The translations under genes and the position numbers were made by a program. Shown piece by piece: positions 1 to 22,455 of a DNA stretch of 37,491 nt. Numbering within the stretch: the stretch's first letter is position 1; each line of letters begins with the position of its first letter. Below the pieces are notes generated by a model, which was not told where the DNA came from, ran no database searches, and was given only the letters and a program-made list of their open reading frames with translations. The DNA is from Halobacteriovorax sp. (GTDB lineage: Bacteria > Bdellovibrionota > Bacteriovoracia > Bacteriovoracales > Bacteriovoracaceae): positions 69,914-107,404 of the forward strand of contig PBIO01000003.1 in NCBI GenBank assembly GCA_002720865.1. Reading direction: 5' to 3'.

Positions 1-631
1 ATGCAGTCTTTTCTCCTTTAAAGTCTAAGGAAAAAACTGTCTCCCCATCAAATATAGCTTTTCTAATCTGAGGCAATAATACGGAGTCGGATTTACCCTT
101 TCCAGGTTGTCCTATGATTAGCTGATTGTTGCTTCCAAGAGAATTCCTTACCTTTTTTTGACCAAAGTTAGGGCCATTCTTTGTTAGTTTCAGTCCTCTA
201 CCGAGCCATTCTATTGTATTAGTTCCTTTAGAATCGGAATCAGATGTAAACCAATAATAGAACGTGAAAACTAACAGTGGGGAAAGGTAGGCTAAGACGA
301 AAAATGAAAATAATGTGCCTGATAGGTATAGCCAATAATACGAAACAGATACACCGATAGAATCAAAAAAAGCGATTCCTAAGGGGAGTACCTTGGTCCA
401 AATTTTGGTGCTTTCGAATTGCTCTAGGTAAGAAAGGTACACCAAGGCTAAACATATTAGGGTAAACCCTAAAACAAAGACAGACGGTAGTCCTAATCGC
501 CATCCTAGGAAAGCACCATGCCTTCTCCAGTAGTCCGGTAGTATTATAGTGAAAAGATCTTTTAGAGATACCGCTACACCTTCTAAAAGTTCGCTGATTT
601 CGTCATTTTCTTGTCCGTTTTTATTTTTCAT
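1..631 (-). CDS. VirD4/TraG-like type IV coupling ATPase, N-terminal part (cut by window edge)
   Basis: The first 210 codons are visible; the rest lies beyond the left edge. The N-terminus has a short polar stretch and then about three hydrophobic segments (residues about 40-68, 82-104, 105-128), followed by a P-loop GQPGKGKS (174-181) and LDFKGE (202-207). A P-loop, then a conserved leucine/proline stretch, then a D-x-KGE strand is the arrangement of VirD4/TraG/TraD coupling proteins, which are inner-membrane hexamers that bring relaxase-bound DNA to a type IV secretion channel. The ATG overlaps the stop of the upstream Replic_Relax-like gene by 11 nt, so the two are translationally coupled. 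The nucleotide-binding call is firm. The coupling-protein identity is inferred from these motifs plus the integrase context, and a FtsK/HerA-type ATPase is the main alternative. Confidence 0.7.
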   Translation of the reverse strand, partial: MKNKNGQENDEISELLEGVAVSLKDLFTIILPDYWRRHGAFLGWRLGLPSVFVLGFTLICLALVYLSYLEQFESTKIWTKVLPLGIAFFDSIGVSVSYYWLYLSGTLFSFFVLAYLSPLLVFTFYYWFTSDSDSKGTNTIEWLGRGLKLTKNGPNFGQKKVRNSLGSNNQLIIGQPGKGKSDSVLLPQIRKAIFDGETVFSLDFKGEKTA

Positions 632-1439
632 TCAGCACCTCCATGCTTCTTATTTTTAACCAGTTTTGGTCTTGAGCTATTACTTTAGACGCTCTGCTAA
701 TACGTTTTTTAATGTTTGAATTAAGACAGTAGAAGACTAGATTTAGGCATCGATTTGATTCATAGAAGTCCAAAATCTTTCTTTCATAACGAAAGACGGA
801 CTTCAAAGACGTCTCAATTTCGACAATATAGTGTCTCTTTAATTCAGGATCTGATGAAAAAACCAGATCAGGTAAGGAACCCTCGAAGTGAAAGTTTGAC
901 CTCTTTAGCATTCTTTCTGTGGCAAAAAATGGGAGTTTTTGGCCAAGCTTCTCCATCCAGAGTTCAAATGCTCTACATACTAAAAGGTCATGATCCATCT
1001 GGGAGTGAGTAAAACTTCTGGGCCCTTGGTACTCGATTTGAAGCAACTTGAGACATTTTTTGAGCTTCGCTGAGTTCTTTAAAGCATATACTTTGCGACC
1101 CCTCAGCCATACTGACTCGACGACCAATTGCTTCTCTTTGAGACTTTTTAGGACTCTTCTGAGCCTTACTTTTGCGCCAGCTATTGTTCCGTCTTTAAAA
1201 AAAATATTCCGCAAAAACTCCGCATCAACCCTTCCAAAATAATTTATATACTCTAATACTCCTACCTCTCTCTCACTTAACTTACTTACTACACTACTCT
1301 CACTCACTCTCTCTTCATCTCTTCTTCTCCCTCTCCATACCCACTGTGACCCCTTCCAAGATCGTGGAGCGGGAGGGGTCACAGTGGGTATGGAGATTTT
1401 TTCTCGAGAAGTAGCTGAATTACTTAATGAAATTTCCAT
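621..1439 (-). CDS. Replic_Relax-like winged-helix protein of a mobile element
   Basis: A 272-aa protein from the ATG at 1439, preferred over an in-frame start 36 nt upstream because AAAGGAAA lies about 8 nt before it. Residues 1-45 are Ser/Pro/Arg-rich and probably disordered. Residues 53-121 read as a winged helix (SEREVGVLEYI, RLRRVLKSLKEKQLVV, RKVYAL). Residues 145-250 form an alpha/beta domain with PD at 190-191 and VEIE at 206-209, reminiscent of a nuclease-like core. This plan fits the replication-relaxation (PF13814-type) proteins found beside coupling ATPases in integrative elements. A DNA-binding role in conjugative transfer or element replication is inferred. Codons 15-36 contain a 23-bp perfect inverted repeat and codons about 35-63 are almost pure purine on the coding strand. 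Family assignment is moderate. Confidence 0.55.
   Translation of the reverse strand: MEISLSNSATSREKISIPTVTPPAPRSWKGSQWVWRGRRRDEERVSESSVVSKLSEREVGVLEYINYFGRVDAEFLRNIFFKDGTIAGAKVRLRRVLKSLKEKQLVVESVWLRGRKVYALKNSAKLKKCLKLLQIEYQGPRSFTHSQMDHDLLVCRAFELWMEKLGQKLPFFATERMLKRSNFHFEGSLPDLVFSSDPELKRHYIVEIETSLKSVFRYERKILDFYESNRCLNLVFYCLNSNIKKRISRASKVIAQDQNWLKIRSMEVLNEK
1251..1336. repeat. Polypyrimidine (CT-rich) low-complexity tract
   Basis: The plus strand is almost entirely C and T, with scattered A, over about 85 nt, including short units such as CTCTCT and ACTTACTTACTA. It lies in the coding sequence of the Replic_Relax-like gene, where the coding strand is therefore purine-rich (many GAG, AGA and AGT codons). 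It ends where the left arm of the 1332-1396 inverted repeat begins. Confidence 0.6.
1332..1396. repeat. Long perfect inverted repeat, 23-bp arms
   Basis: Arms 1332-1354 and 1374-1396 are exact reverse complements, separated by 19 nt. Each arm contains CCCACTGTGACCCC or its complement. Three further pairs (one G-U) extend the stem inward in RNA. It lies within codons 15-36 of the Replic_Relax-like gene and would form a very stable hairpin near the 5' end of its mRNA or in single-stranded transferred DNA. Candidate roles are an origin of transfer, a regulatory hairpin or a REP-like insertion; the sequence alone does not decide. Confidence 0.85.
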
Positions 1440-1484
1440 ATTGGTGTTTCCTTTAAAAAAGGTACTTAAAAGCACCTGCTAAAA

Positions 1485-21797: not shown

Positions 21798-21833
21798 TTC
21801 TTAACTCCAACTTTCTTTAATATGAATCGAGAA

Positions 21834-21862
21834 TAATTACGTTATTGCGCACAAACTGTAAA
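21834..21862 (-). promoter_or_regulatory. Promoter of rpmF and the fab run
   Basis: On the minus strand TTTACA (21857-21862), 17-nt spacer, TAATTA (21834-21839); start site about 30 nt ahead of the rpmF ATG. The -35 ends only 3 nt from the edge of the 21866-21944 inverted repeat. Confidence 0.55.
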
Positions 21863-21865
21863 GCA

Positions 21866-21944
21866 GATAAGTGCCTGTTACCTTTTGGGACTAAATGCGT
21901 CGTAACACGACGCGCCTAGTCCCAAAAGGTAACAGGCACTTATC
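21866..21944. repeat. 79-nt inverted repeat with 28-bp perfect arms and nested hairpin
   Basis: Arms 21866-21893 and 21917-21944 are exact reverse complements; the outer part reads GATAAGTGCCTGTTACC. The 23-nt centre itself contains GCGTCGT-AAC-ACGACGC (21897-21913), a second 7-bp hairpin with a 3-nt loop, separated from the long stem by 3-by-3 unpaired bases. It fills the gap between the rpmF promoter and the aroK start, ending 7 nt before the aroK ATG. It has no T tract. A REP/MITE-like element, a cruciform or an RNA control hairpin are possible readings. Confidence 0.92.
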
Positions 21945-21951
21945 ATTAGGT

Positions 21952-22455
21952 ATGAAAATATTGCTATGCGGCTTCATGGGATCAGGAAAAACGACACTCT
22001 TTGAGAGGATTAAATCTAAGTCCCCAGAGGTTTCCTGTAAGGATCTAGATCAGCTGATTGAAGAGAAACTGGCCGAGCCTGACGAGACCCTTGGGGATGT
22101 AATTGGCAGAGTGGGTTGGGAAAAGTTTCGTGAAGTTGAGGAAAGTCTTTTATATCAAGAACTTAGTTTCGATGGAAATCTTCTTATAAGCCTTGGTGGA
22201 GGGAGTCTTACTCCTCGTTTGGTTGATGAGATTGATACTAACCCCGAAGTTAGGTTGATCTGGCTAGATACTGATTTTGAAACCTGCTGGTCTCGAGTGT
22301 CAGATGATGCTGGGCGTCCCTTGGTCGCAAAAGGCAAAGATTTTTTAAAAAACCTCTATAATGAGAGAAAACCACTTTATGAAAGGGCCAGTATTCACCT
22401 GAACCCCCATCAGCAGGGCTTAATTAGCAATTTTCAGCAACTCATCGAGAATTAG
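21952..22455 (+). CDS. aroK: Shikimate kinase
   Basis: A 167-aa P-loop kinase phosphorylating shikimate in chorismate synthesis. Walker A GFMGSGKTT (7-15), DLDQLIEE with the substrate Asp, GWEKFREVEE, SLGGGSLTP and the lid RPLVAKG followed by LYNERKPLYERAS all fit. The ATG at 21952 gives the canonical MKILLCG start; an in-frame start 57 nt upstream would translate half of the inverted repeat and is rejected. The ribosome binding site (TTAGG) is weak and close, and the hairpin directly upstream may affect initiation. Confidence 0.92.
   Translation: MKILLCGFMGSGKTTLFERIKSKSPEVSCKDLDQLIEEKLAEPDETLGDVIGRVGWEKFREVEESLLYQELSFDGNLLISLGGGSLTPRLVDEIDTNPEVRLIWLDTDFETCWSRVSDDAGRPLVAKGKDFLKNLYNERKPLYERASIHLNPHQQGLISNFQQLIEN

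Follow-up and report, generated by a model that had tools for sequence, protein, structure and literature searches.

The window analysed here, a stretch of 37,491 nucleotides from Halobacteriovorax sp., contains a long hairpin between the divergent genes rpmF and aroK, and the question raised by this locus is whether the hairpin serves its neighbours or is a copy of something that moves. Our answer is that it is very likely a non-autonomous miniature mobile element, that is, a REPIN or a dimer of terminal inverted repeats (TIRs), linked to a REP-associated transposase (RAYT).

The hairpin and the rpmF-aroK gap

The complete REPIN-like element occupies 79 nt (21866-21944, with no strand assigned). 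Its left arm (21866-21893, + strand) carries the REP unit GTGCCTGTTACCTTTTGGGACT, and its right arm (21917-21944, - strand) carries the same unit inverted. Between the arms, an internal loop, AAT/GCC, encloses a nested hairpin (21897-21913, also strandless), in which GCGTCGT and ACGACGC form 7 bp around the loop AAC; this is where the subterminal GCG motif of REP units sits. The 28 exact pairs, the 3-by-3 internal loop and the inner hairpin described in the earlier note were thus confirmed in the window. A 28-bp stem is expected by chance about 1e-10 times in the window, and the RNA fold of 21840-21960 reaches -65.7 kcal/mol (z -12.6), a value that none of 200 shuffles matched. Searching Rfam gave five matches on both strands, all of them to microRNA-precursor models and far under the gathering scores, and these were rejected as hairpin artefacts.

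Of 16 inverted repeats listed in the window, the hairpin ranks first, as had been claimed; a further strong dyad, with 26-nt arms, lies at 1332-1396, which corrects the description of the hairpin as standing far ahead of all others. The arms of this second hairpin are 96% complementary, with a loop of 13 nt and with TTTTTT following on the + strand. It overlaps the N-terminal part of the ORF 621-1475 (- strand), has a sequence unlike that of the aroK element, and looks like a terminator or another kind of palindromic repeat.

The left neighbour of the element is rpmF (ribosomal protein L32; 21585-21797, - strand), and the right neighbour is aroK (shikimate kinase; 21952-22455, + strand). The element ends 7 nt (ATTAGGT) ahead of the aroK ATG at 21952, in agreement with the earlier note; however, it does not fill the whole divergent control region, as was stated there, because the starts of rpmF and aroK are separated by 154 nt, of which it covers 79. 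The same note was right that the site is without a T tract, there being no terminator-like T run, and that no transposase is nearby, in that a search for Y1 transposases found none in the window. A promoter-like site for rpmF, TTTACA-18-AATTAT (21833-21862, - strand), belongs to a stretch conserved in G007, a genome of the same genus, and its -35-like box is 3 nt away from the element. The first 67 nt of the gap on the rpmF side align with G007 up to the left edge of the element (score 72, against a maximum of 34 in 200 shuffles); against the G007 gap, in which no long stem was found, the element itself does not outscore shuffled sequence. The element has probably been tolerated as a passenger, sparing the promoter-like site of rpmF and now making up the leader of aroK or a spacer upstream of it. 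In any aroK transcript starting upstream of the element, a strong leader hairpin would form, as the predicted fold suggests, and an effect on aroK is possible.

Copies and transposase genes in the same genome

When the element was searched against its own genome, 19 matches were obtained at 11 places. Eight full copies could be aligned, with arms of the form (A/G)GTGCC(A/T)GTTACCTTTTGGGAC, a variable centre that usually includes the inner GCG hairpin, and a core length of 69-72 nt. All eight are intergenic, and their overlap with neighbouring genes, for which ORFs were taken mechanically, is limited to stop codons, which the copies often abut. Besides rpmF-aroK, the copies lie at seven other gene pairs, which include divergent, tandem and convergent ones. 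At two loci (L005, 1501-1577, and L007, 1499-1579), both genes of a convergent pair have stop codons that overlap the TAG/CTA at the outer edges of the element. At the foot of the REP, where a GTAG-type tetranucleotide was looked for, the outer bases of the eight copies vary around TAGGT/TAAGT. By simple comparison, the inner stem has 5-8 bp in seven copies and 4 in the remaining one (C14). However, stem halves taken from different copies also pair (3-9, mean 4.8), in some cases as well as the true stems, and covariation of the inner stem across these sequences is therefore only suggestive.

A looser scaffold, GGTNCCNNNNNCCTTTTGGG, with one mismatch allowed, has 36 sites in the genome, against 1 in the reversed control. 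Sorted by eye, these comprise 10 head-to-head pairs, 2 sites that flank the C9 RAYT gene, and 14 singlets, certain of which are palindromic by themselves (e.g., AAAAGGTGCCAGGCACCTTTTGGGAC). The element is thus not a single copy conserved only as spacer; the genome-wide count that the earlier note had proposed gives a multi-copy family of eight full copies plus related pairs and singlets. Two features by which REPINs are recognised were seen, namely two inverted REPs able to fold as one hairpin and a repeated family in extragenic space. The exact arm core had no match in a wider contig collection, from which this genome and its near relatives may be absent.

RAYT-like genes, for which a search had likewise been proposed, are present elsewhere in the genome. 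There are four Y1_Tnp genes (181-210 aa), whose best NCBIfam model is REP_Tyr_transpos at 61-72 bits, under the 80-bit cut-off. Inverted repeats flank three of the four. In an alignment of 11 RAYT-like proteins, the NHYH and the Y120, N124 and P125 columns (HUH motif; catalytic Tyr in Y---NP) are invariant in all. The ends of the C9 RAYT, AAAGGTTCCATGTACCTTTTGGG and AAAGGTTCCATGCTCCTTTTGGG, have the scaffold in common with the hairpin arms; 18 of 21 bases are equal and 3 differ. This is the nearest case, no RAYT of the genome having the exact GTGCC(A/T)GTTACC arm. The hairpins at C19 and C5 have C9-type arms whose left and right sides differ much as the two ends of the C9 gene do, and this resemblance suggests an origin by internal deletion.

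RAYT ends and hairpin sites in relatives

A profile search found RAYT-like matches in 66 of 95 genomes of the family, with the 80-bit REP_Tyr_transpos cut-off exceeded in 3. Flanking repeats were assessed in two tests that have some loci in common. The first covered 33 RAYT loci, including the four of the window's own genome, and among the 29 scorable loci a score of 26 was reached at 19, against 1 in the reversed control. In the second, 78 of 80 named loci were scorable; TIRs flank 27 of 37 Y1 loci in the Bdellovibrionota set (L165-L201, three records of which bear just the title 'bacterium'; control 2) and 36 of the 41 other loci (control 0). GGTRC occurs in 18 of the 27 TIRs of the clade, mostly with TA or AA in front, and the motif GGGGWSAS was not seen among the clade TIRs printed; GGGGTCAG occurs in many of the outgroup loci encoding proteins of ~310 aa. 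In a tree, 41 proteins (the Bdellovibrionota set and the four of this genome) are split from this outgroup by a 100/100 branch; the tree was midpoint-rooted for drawing only, and the clade was compared with the ~310-aa relatives alone and not with the published TnpAY1 subclasses. Judged by this protein comparison, the RAYTs considered here make up a Bdellovibrionota clade distinct from the ~310-aa TIRYTs.

The REP shared with RAYT flanks has only a near match in the window's own genome (C9, 18/21) but is exact in three relatives. In G034, the 22-nt ends of a RAYT are letter-identical to the arms of five hairpins, plus two singlets (control 0). In G106, an identical 21-mer lies on both sides of a RAYT and recurs in other repeats of that genome. 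In G085, a RAYT at C178:784-1365 lies between sites at 734 and 1443, and the 21-mer on its flanks is likewise present in repeats elsewhere in G085. At one RAYT gene of G106 (L278, C95:34402-35193), the left end is a head-to-head REP pair and the right end a single REP. The pattern GTRCSWNNNNNCTTTTGGGAC has 117 sites in 15 of 129 family genomes and none in the control; when the rows were read by eye, 27 head-to-head pairs within 60 nt were counted among these sites. Two results count against the RAYT link: in G016 and G019, repeats are present and the RAYT profile is unmatched, and in G061, G040, G063 and G039, no RAYT flank fits the strict scaffold.

Searching the 94 family relatives with the element yielded a match in G034 only, a partial one at an element of another type. 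The rpmF-aroK gap was also compared in relatives, as the earlier note had suggested: among 29 loci, 3 had no rpmF nearby, and the longest perfect stem in the 26 gaps measured is 6-10 bp.

A closer comparison is offered by G053, a genome of the same genus in which one orthologous stretch is 95% identical over 533 residues. It gave neither an element match nor a RAYT match in an assembly that is 81% complete, and its one scaffold site, a singlet, has a counterpart in the same position of the window's genome. The joined flanks of 12 loci were used as queries and produced 9 matches, with both flanks found at 7 loci at 74-87% identity. The aroK locus, which was not found in the assembly, and the C11a and C9-RAYT loci were unmatched, and C31b and the C19 RAYT matched by one flank only. 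Hairpins of the aroK-element kind are absent from all 7 testable loci, five of the aroK family (C14, C31a, C31c, C17, C11b) and two of C9 type (C19, C5). These are not clean empty sites: in the element's place they hold 9-64 nt of other sequence that is missing from the window's genome. Therefore, either the hairpins arrived with, or preceded, a loss of local sequence, or these sites change rapidly. The G053 sites (L305-L311) give the impression that resident DNA was replaced by the element; at C5, read by eye, the element's position is taken by a terminator-like hairpin and a T run.

Origin of the hairpin and relation to known systems

The short distance from the hairpin to the ATG and the very stable leader predicted for aroK would suit a cis-acting regulatory RNA, i.e., a leader or attenuator selected for function at this gene. 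Against this reading, the same sequence recurs at the seven other gene pairs in every orientation, the only match among 94 relatives is partial and of a different type, and the stems in the relatives' gaps are short. These multi-copy and presence/absence data largely refute it, and we consider it very improbable. Equally little credence is given to an intrinsic bidirectional terminator family: two full copies do lie between convergent genes, and G053 has its hairpin and T run in place of the C5 copy, but the aroK site has no T run and received no terminator-like call, and several copies stand ahead of start codons, some in divergent gaps that need no terminator. Both readings were rejected as primary explanations.

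A mobile-element copy may instead have been co-opted later, for example by providing a new start context for aroK or masking its ribosome site. The hairpin contains an in-frame ATG at 21895, from which an ORF (21895-22455) is open across the right arm; a start there would lengthen AroK by 19 residues, with the right half of the element as their coding sequence, and just ATTAGGT lies between the hairpin and the ordinary ATG. However, the AroK match with G007 begins at query residue 1, the ordinary ATG, and co-option is rather improbable.

We favour a REPIN/TIR-type element because the family is multi-copy and intergenic, its arms have the RAYT end scaffold, ends and arms are identical in relatives, and the hairpins are absent from the orthologous sites of G053. 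Together with the RAYT-like genes of this genome, these results support the idea in the earlier note of a palindrome linked to REP-associated transposases. The element would consist of two REP units of ~22-36 nt placed head to head, as if both ends of a RAYT-type Y1 (HUH) transposon had been joined. By analogy with REPINs and TIRtrons, a RAYT would recognise the folded single strand and nick it, and the hairpin copy would then enter intergenic DNA through RAYT action. The mobiliser may be the C9 RAYT or a sister of that gene that has been lost or was not sampled; it is named by inference, because none of the RAYTs found in this genome has the exact arm sequence. The hairpin would be one copy of a small parasitic repeat that has spread through the intergenic spaces of this Bacteriovorax-like bacterium, very probably aided by single-strand transposases encoded by genes with matching ends. 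A wider proposal is tentative and, as a whole, unlikely: that a Bdellovibrionota-specific RAYT lineage uses the end scaffold GTRCSW-N5-CTTTTGGGAC followed by GCG, with a genome-specific short segment that changes together in transposase ends and hairpin arms as a natural recognition code, and also that the elements replace some 10-60 nt of resident intergenic DNA rather than simply inserting.

The kind of element is known already. IS200/IS605 elements and their MITE derivatives have a HUH transposase, hairpin ends and non-autonomous derivatives, all of which are found again here; the difference is that single diverged RAYT genes are seen here, whereas those insertion sequences are multi-copy and near-identical.

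In the account of Bertels and Rainey (2011, PMC3116915), as far as it is used here, REPINs are RAYT-linked, intergenic pairs of conserved REPs in inverted orientation, separated by a variable spacer whose length and pairing are kept. The present family agrees in its inverted REP pair, its variable centre of steady length, which usually pairs, its intergenic location and its probable RAYT link. It differs in having 8 full copies of the aroK arm family rather than hundreds, arms of 22-28 perfect pairs, and a TA(G/A)GT-like outer motif with no clear GTAG tag. TIRtrons or TIRYTs, in the portions of Di Nocera (2013, PMC3733652) and Quentin (2018, PMC6006769) drawn upon, are Y1 transposase genes between inverted repeats that can form moderately abundant families, single or dimeric. 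Here, too, Y1 genes (three of the four in this genome) lie between inverted repeats of a kind that also occurs singly or as dimers; in contrast to the common published motif GGGGWSAS, the ends are GGTRC...CTTTTGGGAC-like, and the proteins, of ~200 aa, form a clade of their own against the ~310-aa ones. The portions of the literature searched contain no relevant account of short Bdellovibrionota RAYTs with such ends, and this RAYT lineage and repeat scaffold appear to be undescribed there.

The finding widens the range of REPIN-like elements, and of RAYTs bearing TIRs, to a lineage related to predatory bacteria. G053, a near relative without RAYT matches or copies, offers a before/after comparison, and the exact pairing of transposase ends with hairpin arms in three relatives provides a compact set for studying how RAYTs choose their DNA.
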